DNA of 64,000 nucleotides, taken from positions 1 through 64,000 of the forward strand of contig JAGXSV010000016.1 of NCBI GenBank assembly GCA_018333605.1. Direction: 5' to 3'. Shown one piece after another: positions 16,400 through 31,606 of the stretch. The translations under genes and the position numbers were made by a program. The stretch's first letter is position 1, and every line of letters begins with the position of its first letter. The notes beneath the pieces were generated by a model. The model was given only the letters and a program-made list of their open reading frames with translations. It searched no databases and was not told the DNA's origin. This stretch comes from Hydrogenophaga sp. Its GTDB lineage: Bacteria > Pseudomonadota > Gammaproteobacteria > Burkholderiales > Burkholderiaceae_C.

Positions 16400-17179
16400 T
16401 CAGAGCATTTTTTGAATGAGCGCGCCCTGGAACAGCACTGGCCCGGTCGGGCCGCGTTCGCTGGGCACGCCGCCCAGCGGCTCCAGGCTGATCGCCAGCG
16501 CCGGCACTTCACGCACGTCGCGCTGGTCGGCCGCCAGTTGCAGCAGCCTTTCCTGACTCAGCACACCCAGTGAACGGGGTGCCGCGCCCGGTGGCAGGGC
16601 CCAGAGCTGGAGCGACTTGTCGGCCGCTTCCTGGTAGCCGCCCACGCGCTGCAGCGTCAGGCGCCCGTTCTTCGGATCGAAGGTCACCAGCATCGAGGCG
16701 CTGGCCTGCTCGTCGTTCAGCACCGCCACGTATTCGATCTGCGGCTGGGCAGACAGCTGCGCCTGCAGATCACCGATCCGGGCGCCCATTTCATCGCGCA
16801 GGCCCACCGCCGTGACCACGGCCAGCACTGTGGCCAGCGCACCGGCCGCGGTGGTGCCGCGCCACAGCGCCAGGCTGCGCAACCAGCCGCTTGGGGCGGG
16901 TTGTGCGGCGTCCGTGCGCGCAGCGGCCATGGCCACGTGCTCGCTGTCGGCGCGCACCAGGTTGTGGATGCGGGTCCACACCACCGGCGACGGTTCGGCG
17001 GGCACCTGCAGCTCGTTCATGCCGGCCACGCGGCTTTGCCAGATCAGCGCGGCCGCGCGCACCGGCGCCTGTTCACGTGCCAGTGCTTCGAAGCGGCGGC
17101 GCGCACCGCCCCGCAGCGTGCCGAGGGCGTAGGCGCTGGCCAGGCGGTCCAGCAGCTCAGGGTGTTGGCTCAATTTCAT
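16400..17179 (-). CDS. RskA-type anti-sigma factor
   Basis: The 259-residue membrane protein has an N-terminal cytoplasmic anti-sigma domain (about 1-100), one transmembrane helix (about 108-130, TTAAGALATVLAVVTAVGL) and a periplasmic RskA-type C-terminal domain ending VLFQGALIQKML. It should hold the neighbouring SigK-like sigma factor inactive until an envelope signal arrives. I do not see the HxxxCxxC zinc motif, as is usual for RskA. The start is the ATG at 17179; a TTG two codons upstream is possible. It is the last gene of a five-gene minus-strand run. Confidence 0.88.
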   Translation of the reverse strand: MKLSQHPELLDRLASAYALGTLRGGARRRFEALAREQAPVRAAALIWQSRVAGMNELQVPAEPSPVVWTRIHNLVRADSEHVAMAAARTDAAQPAPSGWLRSLALWRGTTAAGALATVLAVVTAVGLRDEMGARIGDLQAQLSAQPQIEYVAVLNDEQASASMLVTFDPKNGRLTLQRVGGYQEAADKSLQLWALPPGAAPRSLGVLSQERLLQLAADQRDVREVPALAISLEPLGGVPSERGPTGPVLFQGALIQKML

Positions 17180-17244
17180 GGACAAGCTCTCAATTCTTCA
17201 CGGCGCCGGAGCACCACCCGCACCGCACGAAAGGGTGCAAAGTC

Positions 17245-17327: not shown

Positions 17328-17900
17328 TCACGCGAACCCAGCCATGCAGCTGCGCAGCTGGTCCAGCCCGCGGCGGATCCAGGTCTTCACCGTGCCCAAT
17401 GGCAGCTTGAGTTGTTGCGCCAGTTCGCCGTGGCTCAGGTCGCGCAGGTAGGCCAGGCTCACCACCTCGCGCTGTTTGTTCTCCAACTGGCCCAGACACC
17501 GGTGCAGCGCCCAGGCCTGCTGGCTGGCGAGGCTGGTGTCCAGCGGGTTGGGCGAGTCGCCTTCCAGCGTGTCGGCCATGGTCTCGTCGATCTCGTCGGT
17601 CAGGTGTTCGCGCTCGGCCTTGCGGCGGCGCAGCAGGTCCAGCGAGCGGCTGCGCACGATCAGGCCCAGCCAGGCCATGGGCGGGCTCAAGGATGCGCGG
17701 TAGTCGGGTGCGGTGCGCCAGATCTGCAGAAAGCTGTCTTGCAGCGCGTCCTCGGCCCATTCGTGGCTGCGCACCACGCGCAGCGCCAGCCCGTAGAGCT
17801 TGCCCGAGGTGGTGTCGTACAGCGCCTTGAGCGCGGCCTCGTCGCCCTGGCCGATGCGGTCGATCAGGGCCATCAGCGGGGCGTCGGGTTCGTCTTTCAT
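17328..17900 (-). CDS. SigK-type ECF RNA polymerase sigma factor
   Basis: The 190-residue protein is a group 4 sigma-70 factor. Region 2 spans about residues 22-88 (ALYDTTSGKLYGLALRV, EDALQDSFLQIW). Region 4 spans about 125-180, with the helix-turn-helix LSHGELAQQLKLPLGTVKTW. Pairing with an RskA-like gene immediately downstream places it in the SigK/RskA (ECF19-like) group. I chose the ATG at 17900 because the family starts shortly before region 2; longer in-frame starts add unlikely sequence. It should direct transcription from the mirrored promoters near 20.2 kb. Confidence 0.92.
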   Translation of the reverse strand: MKDEPDAPLMALIDRIGQGDEAALKALYDTTSGKLYGLALRVVRSHEWAEDALQDSFLQIWRTAPDYRASLSPPMAWLGLIVRSRSLDLLRRRKAEREHLTDEIDETMADTLEGDSPNPLDTSLASQQAWALHRCLGQLENKQREVVSLAYLRDLSHGELAQQLKLPLGTVKTWIRRGLDQLRSCMAGFA

Positions 17901-17968: not shown

Positions 17969-18628
17969 TCACGGCCGCCGCCGGCGCGGCTGCACCTGCG
18001 TGGGCACGGCCAGCGCCGTCACGGGGGTGATGTTGACCGCCACCGGTGCCGCTTCAACCAGCTGGTCGGGGTGCCACACGTGCAGCCGGGCCGGGCCCTC
18101 GGGCACGTCCTGCAGCGTGGCCACGCCGGCGGCGTCGGTCTTCAGTGCCCAGGGCGTGCCGGCCACGAAGATGAAACCGCGCATGGAGCCGTGGATGTGG
18201 CAGCCCAGCGCCAGCGGGCCGCCCTGGTCCAGCGTCACGTCGGCGCTCTGGGGCTCCTTGCCTGCGGTGCGGCCGTCCAGCCGCAGTTCAAACCCGGCTT
18301 TCGGCCCCGCGTTGAGGCCGGCCAGCCCGGCGGGCAGGCCGCGCACATGGTGCTCCCAGCCGTCGAGGTTGGTGAAGCGCACCCGCGAGCCCACCGGCAG
18401 CACACTGACCGCCGGCACGAACTGCATCTTGTGTTGCTGGATGGTCGCCTGCACCGGCTCCGGTGTGCGCGCCTTGGCCGCGCTGGCGGGCTCGATCACC
18501 ACCACCGCGTCGGCCAGGGGCTGACCGTCGCGGCCGGTCACGGTCACCTGCACCGTGGCGGCTTGCGTCGCACCGGACAGCAGCGTCAGCGCCAGCGCAG
18601 CGGGGCGCAACAAAAACCGGGCACTCAT
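17969..18628 (-). CDS. Exported cupredoxin-like copper protein
   Basis: The 219-residue protein has a Sec signal peptide (about 1-23, ending ATQA). It resembles the plastocyanin-like proteins often annotated as methylamine utilization proteins. Possible type 1 copper ligands are present: H93/H94 in WEHHV, then C143, H146 and M149 in GCHIHGSM. The remainder is beta-rich with a Ig-like C-terminal part. It probably carries electrons or binds copper in the periplasm. Its ATG overlaps the stop of the upstream hemoglobin gene (ATGA), so the two are likely translated together. Confidence 0.82.
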   Translation of the reverse strand: MSARFLLRPAALALTLLSGATQAATVQVTVTGRDGQPLADAVVVIEPASAAKARTPEPVQATIQQHKMQFVPAVSVLPVGSRVRFTNLDGWEHHVRGLPAGLAGLNAGPKAGFELRLDGRTAGKEPQSADVTLDQGGPLALGCHIHGSMRGFIFVAGTPWALKTDAAGVATLQDVPEGPARLHVWHPDQLVEAAPVAVNITPVTALAVPTQVQPRRRRP

Positions 18629-19125
18629 CGCGTGTTCACCACGTCGCGGTGCATCGGCGCCAGCAGCGCCAGCAACTGGTTCTGCCGGGTGAAGGGTATG
18701 CCGCGCGCGTCCATGCTCTGCTGCAGCACCTCCACCAGCGCGTTGAAGTGGCTGCGCTTCACGTCCATGTTGGCGTGGGCTTCTTTCATGTCGGGTCCTT
18801 TGTAAACGCACGGGCCGCCCGCGAGCTGGCAGACCTGGTCGGTCAGTTGCTGGGCGAGGTGGTCGAGCTGGGTGTCCTTGAACTGCTCACCGATGCGCGC
18901 ATCGGCCTTCAGGCGGACCACGAAGTCGTCCATCAGCGCGCGGATGCCGGCCTGTTCGCCGAAGGCCTGGTACAACCCGGCGGCTGGTGCCATGGGGTAG
19001 GCGCTGGCGGGTGTCACGGCTGGCGCGGCAGGGGGCTTGGCCGCCATGGCCATGGACTGGGCAATGGCATGGCCGCTCGCCATGGCGAGCAGGGTGAGGG
19101 TGGCTGAGGTGATGAACGTTTTCAT
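18625..19125 (-). CDS. Exported group 1 truncated hemoglobin
   Basis: The 166-residue protein begins with a Sec signal peptide (MKTFITSATLTLLAMASGHA, then AQ), followed by a Pro/Ala-rich linker and a group 1 truncated globin domain from about residue 50 (LYQAFGEQAGIRALMDDF). The proximal heme histidine is probably in KEAHANM, with the conserved SHFNAL helix after it. A periplasmic location is unusual for a globin and points to a redox, NO or oxygen role outside the cytoplasm. It is tightly linked to the cupredoxin-like gene. Confidence 0.85.
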   Translation of the reverse strand: MKTFITSATLTLLAMASGHAIAQSMAMAAKPPAAPAVTPASAYPMAPAAGLYQAFGEQAGIRALMDDFVVRLKADARIGEQFKDTQLDHLAQQLTDQVCQLAGGPCVYKGPDMKEAHANMDVKRSHFNALVEVLQQSMDARGIPFTRQNQLLALLAPMHRDVVNTR

Positions 19126-19182: not shown

Positions 19183-20136
19183 TTAGAAGGCAACCTGGGC
19201 CGAGAGGTACACGCCGGTCTGCTTCTTGCCGCTGGTGGTGGCGGGCACGATGCGGCCCAGGTTCACATAGGCGGCGGTGAGCGACAGGTTCTTGCTCGGC
19301 GCCCAGGCGACGAAGAGGTCCATCCAGTCGTCGGCGCGCAGGCCGTTGCCCAGGCCGGCGGCGGCGCCCGCGCGCTGCAGCTTGTTGGGCATGGCGCGGT
19401 ATTCAAAGCCCACCGCCACGTTCTTGCTCAGCAGCCAGGCCACGCTGAGTTCGGGCATGAGCTGGTACCCGTTGTCCGCGCCGCCCAGCGTGGCACCAAA
19501 GCCCAGCAAGCCGTTCTGGTTGGCTTTGGTGGCGCGCAGCGTGCCGTTCACCAGAATGCCCTGCGCCAGGAACAGCTTGGTCGCGCTCAGGTACACATCC
19601 ACGCCGTCGCGCTTCGCGCCCAGGGCGGCCAGCGTGCCGTCGAGCCCGCTGGACTGCAGGCGCTTGGCCTGAATGCCCACGGCGAGCTGTGGCATCAGCG
19701 AGTCGCTGTCGAGCATGGCGTCACCCGCCACGCGGACCTTGGCGCCCAGGATGTTTTGCCTCAAATGCAGGCCGGGCAGTCCCAGCGCGGTGCCGGTGGC
19801 GCGGGTGTTGAAGTCCTGGTGGCCGAATGACAGCTCCACCCGGTCGTTGATGCCGACCGCCACGCCCGCGGCGCTGAGGCCGTAGTCCTGCGTCACGGCG
19901 CGGCTCAGGTAGGCGGACACGCCTGTTTCGCCTTCGGCGGCCTGGCTGCCGATCACCGCCCAGGGCGACAGGCCACCGCCGGCTGAGCCCTCCACGCTGC
20001 TCACGCCGCCGGTCAGCAGCAGCTTGCCGGTGTCGGCCTGGGCGGGAGCTGCGGCGAGCAGGGCGGTGGTGGCGGCCAGGGCCAGCAGGGTGGGCGATGG
20101 CGTCTTGCGATGGTGTGTGGGGCAGAGTTGTTTCAT
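19183..20136 (-). CDS. DUF3034 family outer-membrane protein
   Basis: The 317-residue protein has a signal peptide (about 1-34, ending APAQA) and then alternating amphipathic strands ending in aromatic-rich segments, with terminal residue F (VYLSAQVAF). That is typical of an outer-membrane beta-barrel. I recognise it as DUF3034, whose function is unknown. It is the first gene of the sigma-factor operon and lies about 70 bp from the predicted minus-strand ECF promoter. A role as a channel for substrates of the exported redox proteins is plausible but unproven. Confidence 0.8.
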   Translation of the reverse strand: MKQLCPTHHRKTPSPTLLALAATTALLAAAPAQADTGKLLLTGGVSSVEGSAGGGLSPWAVIGSQAAEGETGVSAYLSRAVTQDYGLSAAGVAVGINDRVELSFGHQDFNTRATGTALGLPGLHLRQNILGAKVRVAGDAMLDSDSLMPQLAVGIQAKRLQSSGLDGTLAALGAKRDGVDVYLSATKLFLAQGILVNGTLRATKANQNGLLGFGATLGGADNGYQLMPELSVAWLLSKNVAVGFEYRAMPNKLQRAGAAAGLGNGLRADDWMDLFVAWAPSKNLSLTAAYVNLGRIVPATTSGKKQTGVYLSAQVAF

Positions 20137-20207: not shown

Positions 20208-20234
20208 TACGCAACACCGCGCCGTGTGGATTCA
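20208..20234 (-). promoter_or_regulatory. Predicted ECF promoter of the DUF3034-sigma operon
   Basis: On the minus strand, TGAATCC (20234-20228) is followed after 16 bp by CGTA (20211-20208), an ECF-like -35/-10 pair. It lies about 72 bp before the DUF3034 start. The same two elements occur in mirror image on the other strand for the divergent ferritin-like gene. Confidence 0.6.
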
Positions 20235-20268
20235 GCACAGGGCATGACCCCAAAAAATGTGGGGTTTC

Positions 20269-20296
20269 TGAATCCGGCCGCCGGGTCGCCTGCGTA
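20269..20296 (+). promoter_or_regulatory. Predicted ECF promoter of the ferritin-like operon
   Basis: TGAATCC (20269-20275) is followed after 17 bp by CGTA (20293-20296), about 84 bp before the ferritin-like start. Together with the opposing promoter, the -35 regions form a perfect 8-bp inverted repeat (GGATTCAG at 20228-20235 and CTGAATCC at 20268-20275). A small ACCCC/GGGGT inverted repeat (20247-20251, 20261-20265) lies between them. Confidence 0.6.
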
Positions 20297-20379: not shown

Positions 20380-20982
20380 ATGTCCCGCACCACCACTGCA
20401 TCCGCTTCTTCGCTGATCACCGCCACGCCGTCGCGCCGCTCCTTTATGGGCACCGGCGGTGCCCTTTCGACCGTCGCTGTTGCCCTGCTGGCCGGCAAAG
20501 ACGTTCTGGCCGCGGGTCACAAGGCCGACACGTCCCAGGACGTGTCCATCCTCAACGTGGCGCTCACGCTGGAGCACGAAGCCATCAACGCCTACCAGCT
20601 CGGTGCCGGCAGCGGTCTGCTGCAAAAGCCGGTGCTCGACATCGCGCTGCAGTTCCAGGGCCACCACAAGACCCACCGCGACGCGCTCATCGCCACGATC
20701 CAGAAGCTCGGCGGCAAGCCGGTGGCCGAGATGACGCTGGTGGACTACGCCAAGGCGCTCAACGCCGGTTCGCTCAAGAGCCAGGGCGATGTGCTCGACC
20801 TCGCCGCCCGCCTGGAGCTGGGCGCGACCAACGCCTACCTGAGCGTGATCCCCGCGCTGGGCGACCGCGAACTCGCCAAGGTGGCCGCCCGCCTGGCCGC
20901 TGACGAAACCATGCATTTCACGGTGCTGACCAACGCCCTGGGCCGTCCCCTGCCTGCGGGCGCGCTGTCGTTCGGCGCCTGA
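20380..20982 (+). CDS. Tat-exported ferritin-like domain protein
   Basis: The 200-residue protein starts with a twin-arginine signal (SRRSFMGTG followed by a hydrophobic segment to about residue 46). The mature part is a four-helix ferritin-like domain of the DUF4439/Dps-like kind, with carboxylate and histidine motifs LEHEAINAY, GHHKTHRD, LELGATNAY and ADETMHFT at regular spacing. It may bind a diiron centre in the periplasm. Export by Tat suggests a cofactor inserted before export. It is divergent from the DUF3034 gene and probably controlled by the same sigma factor. Confidence 0.85.
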   Translation: MSRTTTASASSLITATPSRRSFMGTGGALSTVAVALLAGKDVLAAGHKADTSQDVSILNVALTLEHEAINAYQLGAGSGLLQKPVLDIALQFQGHHKTHRDALIATIQKLGGKPVAEMTLVDYAKALNAGSLKSQGDVLDLAARLELGATNAYLSVIPALGDRELAKVAARLAADETMHFTVLTNALGRPLPAGALSFGA

Positions 20983-21067: not shown

Positions 21068-21616
21068 ATGTTCATCCAGATCACCCTGGCCGCCACCGCA
21101 GCCCTCGCACTCTCTGCCTGCGCCTCCAGCATGAGCGCGCCCGCCCCCATGATGTATTCGCAGGCCAGCCTGCCCGCCGCCGTGCAGGTGCCGGCCGGGC
21201 ACCGGGTGGCCATGGAAACCGTGGGTGTGGGCCAGATCACCTACGAATGCCGCGCCAAGAAAGACGCGATGGGCCACGAGTGGGTTTTCGTCGGCCCTGA
21301 CGCCAAGCTGATGGACCGCATGGGCAAGCAGGTAGGCACCTACTACGGCCCGCCCGCCACCTGGGAGAGCATGGACGGCTCCAAACTCACCGCCACGCAG
21401 CTGGCGGTGGCACCGGCCGCGGCTGGCAGCATCCCGCTGCAGCTGGTCAAGGCCAACCCAGCCATGGGCATGGGCGCGATGCAGGGCGTGAGCTACATCC
21501 AGCGCGTGGCCACGCAAGGTGGCGTGGCGCCCGTCATGCCGTGCGACGGCAGCCAGATGGGTAGCAAGCAGATCGTCAACTACCAGGCCGATTACATCTT
21601 CTGGAAAGCCGCTTGA
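21068..21616 (+). CDS. DUF3455 family lipoprotein
   Basis: The 182-residue protein has a lipoprotein signal ending LSAC at residue 18, so it is probably a membrane-anchored lipoprotein. The remainder matches DUF3455 as I remember it (GVGQITYECRAK, HEWVFVGPDA, YYGPPATWESMDGS, YQADYIFWKA). Function is unknown; the family is often found with ECF sigma or iron/redox genes. GAGGAG at 21055-21060 precedes the ATG at 21068. It follows the ferritin-like gene by 85 bp and is likely cotranscribed. Confidence 0.83.
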   Translation: MFIQITLAATAALALSACASSMSAPAPMMYSQASLPAAVQVPAGHRVAMETVGVGQITYECRAKKDAMGHEWVFVGPDAKLMDRMGKQVGTYYGPPATWESMDGSKLTATQLAVAPAAAGSIPLQLVKANPAMGMGAMQGVSYIQRVATQGGVAPVMPCDGSQMGSKQIVNYQADYIFWKAA

Positions 21617-29901: not shown

Positions 29902-30447
29902 TCAAATCGACTTCTGCACCAGCCAGCCCTTGAACAACCAAGGCAGGCTGGGCGACACGCCGGTGGCCACGCCACCTTTGTTTTCGGCGCTGACGCCAAT
30001 TTCCGTCACGCCCTGCAGGTCGGATTCATTCACCGGCATCTGCAGCGTTTTGTATTTGCTCGTGACCACGCCCAGCGAGCGGGGTGGGGCATCACCGGCA
30101 ATGGCCCACACCTGCAGGCTGTCTTCGCGGCCTTCTTTCACGTCGTTGAGCCGCTGCACCAGCAAGGCGCTGTCTTTGGGGTTGTAGGTCACCAGCATGG
30201 CGGCTTGCTGGTCTTTGTCCAGCAGCACCGCCACCTGCCGAATCTGCGGCACCTCGATCAGGCGCGCCTGCGCATGCTGAATCTGGGCTTTCAGCTGCGT
30301 CATCATGCTGGCGCTGGCGGCCCAGCCAATCAGCACCACCAGCAGCAAAAAGACGGCCAGGGCGCGCCACCAGGGGCTGACGCGGCGCGAGGCCGGGGTG
30401 GACGCGGGGGTGTTGGTGTTGTCAGAGGCGGTTGCGGTGTCGGTCAT
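29902..30447 (-). CDS. Orphan RskA-like membrane protein
   Basis: The 181-residue protein has a short Thr/Ser/Pro-rich cytoplasmic N-terminus (about 1-25), one transmembrane helix (about 28-47) and a periplasmic domain like the RskA C-terminal domain. Shared features with the protein at 16400-17179 are VAVLLDKDQQAAMLVTYNPK, the LQVWAI...PPRSLGV segment, and the end LFKGWLVQKS. It lacks the cytoplasmic anti-sigma domain, so it is not a complete anti-sigma factor. It starts 7 nt after the lldD-like stop and should be cotranscribed with that gene. Confidence 0.75.
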   Translation of the reverse strand: MTDTATASDNTNTPASTPASRRVSPWWRALAVFLLLVVLIGWAASASMMTQLKAQIQHAQARLIEVPQIRQVAVLLDKDQQAAMLVTYNPKDSALLVQRLNDVKEGREDSLQVWAIAGDAPPRSLGVVTSKYKTLQMPVNESDLQGVTEIGVSAENKGGVATGVSPSLPWLFKGWLVQKSI

Positions 30448-30454
30448 GGGTCAA

Positions 30455-31606
30455 TCAGGAGGGGTAGGTACCGGGTAGGAGTATGCCTTTGTCCACGTTC
30501 TGAATATTGGTGTGGCCGCAAAACGCCATGGTCACGTCCAGCTCCTTGTGGATGATTTCCAGCGCCTTGGTCACGCCTTGTTCGCCCATGGCACCCAGGC
30601 CGTACACCATGGCGCGGCCAATCATGGTGCCGCGCGCGCCCAGCGCCCAGGCTTTCAGCACGTCCTGTCCGCTGCGAATGCCGCCGTCCATCCAAACCTC
30701 AATCTGATCACCCACCGCCGCCACGATGGCCGGCAGCGCTTCGATGCTGCTGGGCGCGCCGTCCAGCTGGCGCCCGCCGTGGTTGCTCACCACAATGGCG
30801 TCGGCCCCGCTGGCCACGGCCAGTTGCGCGTCTTCCTCGCACATGATGCCCTTCAAAATCAGCTTGCCGCCCCACTGCTTCTTCACCCACGCCACGTCTT
30901 CCCAGCTCAGCGTTGGGTCAAACTGCTCGTTGGTCCAGGAAGCCAGCGAACTCATGTCGCTCACGCCTTTTACGTGGCCCACCAGGTTGCGAAAGGTGTG
31001 GCGGCGCGTGCCCATCATGCCCAGCACCCAGCGCGGTTTGGTCGCGATGTCCACGATGTTGCCCAGCGACGGAATGACCGAGGCGCGCATCTTGTTCTTC
31101 AAGTCTTTGTGGCGCTGGCCAATCACCTGCAGGTCCAGCGTGAGCACCAGCGCGCTGCACTGGGCCACCTTGCAGCGCTCGATCATGCGGGCCATGGCTT
31201 CGCGGTCGCGCATCATGTAGAGCTGAAACCAGAACGGCGCGGTGGTGTTTTCCGCCACGTCTTCAATCGAGCAAATGCTCATGGTGGACAGCGTGAACGG
31301 AATGCCGAATTTCTCGGCCGCCTTGGCCGCCTTGATCTCGCCGTCAGCGCTTTGCATGCCGGTCAGGCCCACGGGGGCAATGCACACCGGCATCTTGGCC
31401 ACCTGGCCCACCATTTTTGTTGCGGTGCTGCGGTTTTCCATGTTCACCGCCACGCGCTGGCGCAGCTTGATCTTTTGAAACTCGTCGCTGTTGGCGCGGT
31501 AGGTGCTCTCGGTCCACGAGCCGCTGTCGGCGTAGTCGTAAAACATGCGCGGCACGCGCTTTTTGGCCAATACGCGCAGGTCTTCGACGGTGGTGATGAC
31601 GGTCAT
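30455..31606 (-). CDS. lldD: FMN-dependent alpha-hydroxy acid dehydrogenase (L-lactate dehydrogenase type)
   Basis: The 383-residue TIM-barrel flavoenzyme oxidises an L-2-hydroxy acid, most often L-lactate. The catalytic histidine and following arginine are in SNHGGRQLDGAPSS. The FMN-binding segments LILKGI (lysine) and MDGGIRSGQDVLKALG-like MDGGIRSGQDVLKAWALG are present. Close relatives include LldD and mandelate or glycolate oxidases, so the symbol is provisional. It leads a two-gene unit with the orphan RskA-like protein. Confidence 0.85.
   Translation of the reverse strand: MTVITTVEDLRVLAKKRVPRMFYDYADSGSWTESTYRANSDEFQKIKLRQRVAVNMENRSTATKMVGQVAKMPVCIAPVGLTGMQSADGEIKAAKAAEKFGIPFTLSTMSICSIEDVAENTTAPFWFQLYMMRDREAMARMIERCKVAQCSALVLTLDLQVIGQRHKDLKNKMRASVIPSLGNIVDIATKPRWVLGMMGTRRHTFRNLVGHVKGVSDMSSLASWTNEQFDPTLSWEDVAWVKKQWGGKLILKGIMCEEDAQLAVASGADAIVVSNHGGRQLDGAPSSIEALPAIVAAVGDQIEVWMDGGIRSGQDVLKAWALGARGTMIGRAMVYGLGAMGEQGVTKALEIIHKELDVTMAFCGHTNIQNVDKGILLPGTYPS

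Follow-up and report, generated by a model that had tools for sequence, protein, structure and literature searches.

Self-regulated operons of ECF sigma factors and pairs of SigK with the anti-sigma factor RskA are already known. In M. tuberculosis the oxidation state of the SigK cysteines alters RskA binding, with a disulfide stabilising the complex (PMC7509140). Fasciclin genes are SigK targets in mycobacteria and, as mpt83, in Yersinia (PMC7509140, PMC9861118), and the M. kansasii fasciclin genes mpk83 and mpk70, which carry putative SigK sites, are induced by light (PMC9861118). Another described system is RpoE-ChrR (ECF11) of Rhodobacter, P. syringae and Shewanella, whose core set is listed in Table 2 of PMC5507510 and Table 1 of PMC7074977, the latter including the fasciclin gene RSP_1409; in Shewanella a periplasmic Gpx is a target of RpoE2-ChrR (PMC4336711). 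The factor named 'RpoE' in R. capsulatus shows 34% to SigK versus 24% to R. sphaeroides RpoE, is induced by singlet oxygen and adjoins Gpx and CryB genes (PMC7074977).

The locus described here lies in a 64-kb window, that is, the whole stretch of 64,000 nucleotides of Hydrogenophaga sp. DNA that was analysed, and it resembles each of these systems in part. With SigK-RskA of mycobacteria and Yersinia (ECF18/ECF19) it shares an adjacent RskA_C protein, SigK as the best solved relative of the sigma factor, both SigK cysteines and, in relatives, fasciclin targets. It differs in that the NCBIfam SigK cut-off is missed and in that the predicted regulon adds ferritin-like, DUF3034, globin, cupredoxin, DUF3455, Gpx and Cfa-operon genes; its -35 element is TGAATCC, the mycobacterial SigK motif being outside the comparison. 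With RpoE-ChrR the system shares core regulon genes, present in relatives (amine oxidase, DUF1365-type, Cfa, transporter, SDR, Gpx and fasciclin targets), and a photolyase-related neighbour, but the anti-sigma factor is of the RskA type instead of a ChrR cupin protein, and the promoter TGAATCC has one inserted base relative to TGATCC. The R. capsulatus pair is likewise SigK/RskA-like by its published description (PMC7074977) but alphaproteobacterial. Finally, sister loci in the same genus have DUF3455 cargo and an ECF gene followed by a gene for an anti-sigma-like protein, whereas their ECF factor is about 35-41% identical and their -35 element, TGCATCC, is one substitution away.

The features of the locus are listed in Table 1. 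The first-pass annotation of the window had reported the motifs TGAATCC-N16-CGTA (minus strand) and TGAATCC-N17-CGTA (plus strand) standing back to back, with -35 regions that form a perfect 8-bp inverted repeat. Both motifs were found in these positions and the repeat is exact (GGATTCAG at 20228-20235, CTGAATCC at 20268-20275). With spacers of N15-18 allowed, these are the only two exact matches in the 64-kb window, where dinucleotide shuffles give 0.01. The distance from the -10 element to the start codon is 71 nt for the DUF3034 gene and 83 nt for the ferritin-like gene.

Table 1. Coordinates of the predicted promoters and annotated genes of the locus in the window.
Feature	Position	Strand	Remarks
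Predicted ECF promoter TGAATCC-N16-CGTA	20208-20234	minus	-35 20228-20234, -10 20208-20211; heads DUF3034-globin-cupredoxin-sigma-rskA operon
Predicted ECF promoter TGAATCC-N17-CGTA	20269-20296	plus	-35 20269-20275, -10 20293-20296; serves ferritin-like and DUF3455 genes
Gap between -35 elements	20235-20268	unstranded	34 bp; A-tract and imperfect CCCC/GGGG inverted repeat
DUF3034 exported protein, first gene of operon	19183-20136	minus	PF11231, 312.6 bits
Exported bacterial-type globin (Bac_globin)	18625-19125	minus	PF01152, 52.1 bits
Exported cupredoxin-like protein	17969-18628	minus	Foldseek: NirK, amicyanin, plastocyanin, pseudoazurin
SigK-like ECF sigma factor	17328-17900	minus	Sigma70_r2/r4; upstream start at 17972 also open
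RskA-type membrane anti-sigma factor	16400-17185	minus	PF10099 RskA_C, 85 bits
Twin-arginine ferritin-like protein (Ferritin_2)	20380-20982	plus	PF13668, 87.7 bits; twin-arginine signal by eye
DUF3455 lipoprotein	21068-21616	plus	PF11937, 115.3 bits; lipobox by eye

The gene content given earlier (DUF3034, globin, cupredoxin-like protein, sigma factor and RskA on one side, ferritin-like protein and DUF3455 on the other) was recovered by domain scans and a fold search. The identity of the cupredoxin-like protein is weak from sequence alone (NirK, E 0.054) and clear from the fold: a model with a mean pLDDT of 88 had copper nitrite reductase, amicyanin, plastocyanin and pseudoazurin as best solved matches (E down to 1.6e-6), with TM-scores, normalised to the length of the small cupredoxins, mostly of 0.5-0.75. 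Its candidate type 1 copper ligands H93/H94, C143, H146 and M149 are invariant in 26 aligned sequences. For DUF3455 an eight-stranded beta fold was predicted, for which the fold search returned no solved relative better than E 5e-3. A terminator-like stem overlaps the end of the ferritin-like gene (8 such sites occur in the region vs 3.1 in shuffles), so that expression of DUF3455 may be the lower of the two. Elsewhere in the window, at 29902-30447, a second RskA_C-domain protein is encoded, which has neither an anti-sigma N-terminal domain nor an adjoining sigma gene; its neighbour at 30455-31606 resembles, by eye, an FMN-dependent alpha-hydroxy-acid dehydrogenase.

The label 'SigK-type' that had been given to the sigma factor holds as a likeness and fails as strict membership. 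The protein is a two-domain ECF factor with SigK (4nqw, E 6.4e-23) as best PDB match, versus 2.5e-16 for RpoE (2q1z), and both cysteines of the SigK sigma4 region, aligned to the SigK pair, are found in every one of 80 ortholog loci (from two sets that may share genomes). With the NCBIfam SigK model PRK09646 it scores 133.7 bits against a cut-off of 226, and PRK12514 (144.8 bits) and PRK11924.2-3 (133.8) score higher, both also below their own cut-offs. The adjacent anti-sigma factor reaches 85 bits for RskA_C (cut-off 29.4), and its N-terminus SAYALGTL resembles by eye the AS19-1 consensus quoted in PMC7406223. A ChrR cupin anti-sigma factor was not found at the locus by domain scan, RskA_C being present instead.

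We consider it probable that, as a whole, the following explanation is correct: the two sites are back-to-back promoters for the SigK/RskA-like ECF factor encoded at 17328-17900, with autoregulation, a wider regulon and an oxidative trigger. RNA polymerase carrying this factor would use both promoters. The minus-strand promoter would drive the operon that ends in the genes for the sigma factor and its RskA anti-sigma factor, giving positive autoregulation braked by RskA, which by analogy with the known family (PMC7509140) would act here as an inhibitor or modulator. The plus-strand promoter would drive the ferritin-like and DUF3455 genes, and the same promoter in relatives would serve a wider regulon in which exported proteins for redox reactions and repair are frequent. 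The trigger would be envelope oxidative damage, most likely photo-oxidative (singlet oxygen) or by organic or hydrogen peroxide; gene content suggests this signal because the target set overlaps the singlet-oxygen RpoE-ChrR regulon. The brake may be relieved through proteolysis of RskA or through the conserved cysteine pair of the sigma factor. Autoregulation together with divergent activation is strongly supported at the level of sequence comparison, a putative promoter of the sigma factor's own type being found on the operon that encodes it. The earlier proposal of a 'periplasmic stress or electron-transfer' system was narrowed on its stress side by the regulon content, and a role in electron transfer may still apply.

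For the comparison of intergenic regions, genome contigs were searched with the sigma protein, which yielded 61 relatives; identity over the matched part was at least 59% for loci L004-L053 and L055, 42% for L054 and below 30% for L056-L064. Of the 52 loci L004-L055, 41 contain an exact site at some position; in 21 it is on the strand of the sigma match and no more than 300 nt upstream of it, and 18, by manual count, hold a back-to-back pair. Where the cargo genes are lost or moved, the site lies right next to the sigma gene (as in most Polaromonas loci and in L018, L019 and L028), and in Rhodoferax (L029, L030) one site is at the sigma gene and another heads the relocated DUF3034 operon. The exact site is lacking in 11 of the 52 loci: four have TGCATCC with GCGTA instead (L024, L031, L046, L049), four have only two-mismatch sites (L036, L048, L052, L053), and in L025, L026 and L054 none was found in the places searched. 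That the site follows the sigma gene when the cargo moves speaks for the promoter reading; against it count L024, which retains the gene order but has TGCATCC, and L025, which retains it and in which an exact or near site was not found. CGTA is preceded by a G in 39 of 42 N16 sites and in 20 of 21 N17 sites, and GG, mostly also with TTT, stands before 19 of the 21 N17 sites. All fetched loci together contain 35 distinct back-to-back pairs (28 N16+N17, 7 N16/N16) and no convergent pair within 200 bp; in the genus it is usually the promoter facing the ferritin-like gene that has the N17 spacer. Between the -35 elements (20235-20268 in the window; L004-L027 compared) many relatives have A/T tracts, and L027, like some others, has a partial palindrome, CCCACAAATTTCTTGTGGG. 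These tracts and palindromes and the GG/TTT near the -35 elements are possibly the site of a further regulator or an UP element.

The association of motif and sigma factor was assessed in two genome sets. Among 60 genomes of the genus, the exact motif (N16/17) occurs in 49 and the sigma ortholog in 42 (cut-off at least 298 bits, next matches at most 125 bits). Genomes with the ortholog hold 150 sites in 184 Mb and those without it 15 in 60 Mb (0.81 vs 0.25 per Mb, p=1.8e-6; the density p values ignore relatedness of the genomes). In a family sample of 150 genomes from 115 genera, 33 have the ortholog (cut-off at least 188 bits, next scores at most 145); sites with GCGTA number 3.1 per genome with the ortholog vs 0.35 without (p=3.5e-16), and at least one site is present in 30 of 33 vs 27 of 117 genomes. 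By coordinates, 16 of the 33 ortholog genomes (G061, G065, G069, G085, G097, G102, G114, G126, G139, G146, G165, G167, G177, G191, G192 and G196) have an exact site at most 160 nt upstream of the sigma match on the same strand, and in several others a site is close to the sigma gene and points away from it. No TGAATCC site was found in the sigma-positive genomes G045 and G049. A control with the backward pattern was set aside in favour of the contrast between sigma-present and sigma-absent genomes: TGATCC, too, is more frequent than its reversed counterpart, probably because the reversed pattern contains CTAG and stop words, which are avoided. The mirrored ECF promoters that the first-pass annotation had assigned to the regulon of the locus's own sigma factor are thus supported by phylogenetic footprinting as well as by co-occurrence, and the comparative evidence says that the pair is real and belongs to the neighbouring SigK/RskA-like factor, as far as sequence can indicate.

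In order to define the predicted regulon, stretches were fetched for 80 sites or pairs of the genus, chosen mainly for a G before CGTA, and for 40 more, of which 37 came from other sigma-positive genera. Among the matches listed, 28 of 103 unpaired sites were not fetched; these are mainly sites without G before CGTA, and three of them are sigma loci already included. Downstream genes in these stretches and in loci that the searches returned automatically were tested with representative proteins, the matches of a representative in its own genome being excluded, and the target families bear Pfam names. Duplicates and sites with less than 250 bp downstream were left out of the target count, and an estimated family start was accepted from 40 nt before to 200 nt after the -10 end. 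By this measure, a recurrent family starts near 109 of 162 sites in sigma-positive genomes (60 genomes) vs 2 of 22 in sigma-negative genomes (21 genomes; a FecR gene and a DUF4331 gene), a contrast (Fisher p=1.7e-7) that is not blind because the family representatives were picked from sigma-positive sites. At the remaining 53 sites of sigma-positive genomes, no start of a recurrent family lies within 200 nt. Two genomes without an ortholog that have a more distant ECF gene beside the target (G098, G193) were kept out of both groups; there, 3 of 3 sites qualify.

Within 800 nt, families were found at 83 of 100 sites of the genus, namely ferritin-like (15), DUF3034 (15), hydrolase lipoprotein (12), Gpx (11), DUF4148 (8), fasciclin (7), sigma (5), DUF3455 (4), amine oxidase (4) and FecR (2), and at 40 of 62 sites of other genera, namely DUF3455 (6), sigma (5), ferritin-like (4), DUF3034 (4), hydrolase (4), Gpx (3), DUF1365 (3), DUF4331 (3), a di-iron-like protein (2) and six singles. 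The 17 and 22 sigma-positive sites left without a match likely include chance sites and unrecognised targets. Many of the targets are exported (ferritin-like, DUF3034-globin-cupredoxin, DUF3455, fasciclin, glutathione peroxidase and lipoprotein hydrolase), and it is in relatives that fasciclin genes have the sigma-type promoter. In the complete genome of L198 the Gpx operon comprises genes for exported Gpx, amine oxidase, DUF1365, a Cfa-type methyltransferase, a chalcone-isomerase-like protein, a GPH-type transporter, DUF3833 and a short-chain dehydrogenase (amine oxidase and DUF1365 named by likeness to scanned relatives, transporter and dehydrogenase by eye), and it is adjoined by a MerR gene with B12-binding domains and a photolyase-related DPRP gene. 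Taken together, these genes come near the RpoE-ChrR core set (PMC5507510, PMC7074977). The site is there about 300 nt upstream of Gpx, within the MerR frame; in other genomes it is about 100 nt or less from the Gpx start.

The genome-wide motif search favoured the proposed regulon in relatives; in the window's own genome, which is 62% complete, it gave no convincing site beyond the locus. There the exact motif (N15-18) was found only at the locus and at one N18 site with no gene called nearby. A search with one mismatch, whose spacing did not cover the N16 site, gave 7 matches vs 2 controls, and at the loci of its six one-mismatch matches no recurrent targets were seen by eye. Orthologs of exported Gpx and lipoprotein hydrolase were not found in this incomplete genome, only weaker relatives. 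The wider regulon therefore rests on relatives.

Several further arrangements were observed around the sites. FecR-domain genes repeatedly have TGAATCC or TGCATCC sites (L133 of G054, L116, L299, L326, L328, L333), one such genome being without the sigma ortholog. In a different genus, L290 (= L242) has a back-to-back pair flanked by exported Gpx and, on the opposite side, by a desaturase/AurF-like di-iron protein. L298 and L310 also encode this di-iron protein, and there the divergent sites of its gene and of the amine oxidase/DUF1365 region are separated by about 1.5 kb. Directly behind the motif in L281 and L297 (two genera) is a molybdopterin oxidoreductase gene (PF00174, L281 scanned) with a twin-arginine-like start; the product resembles periplasmic methionine sulfoxide reductase MsrP. 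Single targets include a cytochrome c and a small Cys-rich exported protein.

The alternative that survives best accepts the promoters and changes the signal: copper, haem or other metal stress, surface attachment or envelope stress would be sensed, and the oxidative genes would be a side branch. We regard this as possible, though the less favoured option. The operon includes a cupredoxin, the single targets just named would suit it, and some of the targets would also be compatible with metals, attachment or another stimulus. On roots, Delftia RAY209 shows raised expression of two DUF3455 genes and of a fasciclin and a ferritin-like gene whose locus tags are neighbours (PMC7725335); these genes may be linked to this sigma type. 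Photo-oxidative or peroxide stress is indicated instead by Gpx and by the Cfa/DUF1365/amine oxidase genes beside photolyase-related and MerR-B12 genes.

It is unlikely that another ECF factor reads the sites, either an RpoE/ChrR-type (ECF11) factor or the paralogous sister ECF. ECF11 promoters in P. syringae and Shewanella, TGATCC-N16-CGTA, are one base shorter (PMC5507510, PMC4336711), but the density of this motif is independent of the SigK-like ortholog (0.43 vs 0.47 per Mb, p=0.76) whereas that of the present site tracks it, and the site stands at the ortholog's own gene in many genera. Cupin_7 occurs in 39 of 60 genus genomes; at the five loci viewed, where gene calls are poor, no ECF neighbour was called. 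The sister loci bear TGCATCC-N16-GCGTA, and in G098 and G193, which have no ortholog, TGAATCC stands before a ferritin-like gene adjoining a more distant ECF gene (L317, L318; N16 with GCGTA).

The sister system itself was seen as TGCATCC-N16-GCGTA before a DUF3455 gene in seven loci (L330, L332, L335, L337, L339, L341, L345), and by coordinates a second ECF gene is located about 0.8 kb downstream of the TGCATCC site in G001, G017, G024, G029, G032, G033 and G045. Five of eight paralog ECF loci fetched in the genus (among L353-L361) have a site; in L358, L360 and L361 neither TGAATCC nor TGCATCC was found. The one sister anti-sigma-like protein scanned scores 78.1 bits with the NCBIfam antisigma model (cut-off 100), where the RskA of the window scores 72.8.

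Very improbable, in our judgement, is that the inverted repeat is the operator of a dimeric regulator and not two -35 elements. The perfect 8-bp repeat and the partial palindrome between the arms in some relatives would be in line with an operator, but single arms, with CGTA 16-17 nt further on (as the search required), are found upstream of single genes, and the gap between the arms varies from 13 to 47 bp over the 35 distinct pairs (34-37 bp in 20 and 42-47 bp in 10; a 10-bp phasing is not claimed because the loci are related). The repeat is best understood as a pair of -35 elements that face each other, because its outer C is not conserved in relatives: the search required only TGAATCC, and the eighth base is C in 22 of 42 N16 and 13 of 21 N17 sites. 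That chance or coding conservation keeps the motif is hardly credible, since, although the site upstream of Gpx is inside the divergent MerR coding frame in some genomes (e.g. L198) and sigma-negative genomes still hold 0.25 sites per Mb, unrelated families repeatedly have sites upstream, and genomes lacking the sigma factor have far fewer of them, so that the co-occurrence test disfavours it.

In the open literature searched, no paper was found in which DUF3455 or DUF3034 is connected to an ECF factor, or a SigK-type factor to the present set of targets. The promoter pair very probably read by the SigK/RskA-like factor would offer leads to the function of DUF3455, DUF3034, DUF4331 and DUF4148, and the two sister sigma systems would form a natural pair with -35 elements one base apart. 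According to PMC7509140 it is still unknown which signal releases SigK, and PMC9861118 calls the stimuli obscure; since the SigK-like pair described here occurs in an environmental genus with cultured strains, and its promoter is readable and its predicted regulon coherent, the signal can be tested directly. Tentatively, and with some doubt, we propose that in this Burkholderiaceae branch a SigK/RskA-like pair took over the ECF11 photo-oxidative regulon and that the sister pair split off with a one-base change of the -35 element. If this is true, the signal of SigK-RskA, the mycobacterial systems included, may be photo-oxidative or lipid-peroxide damage of the envelope.
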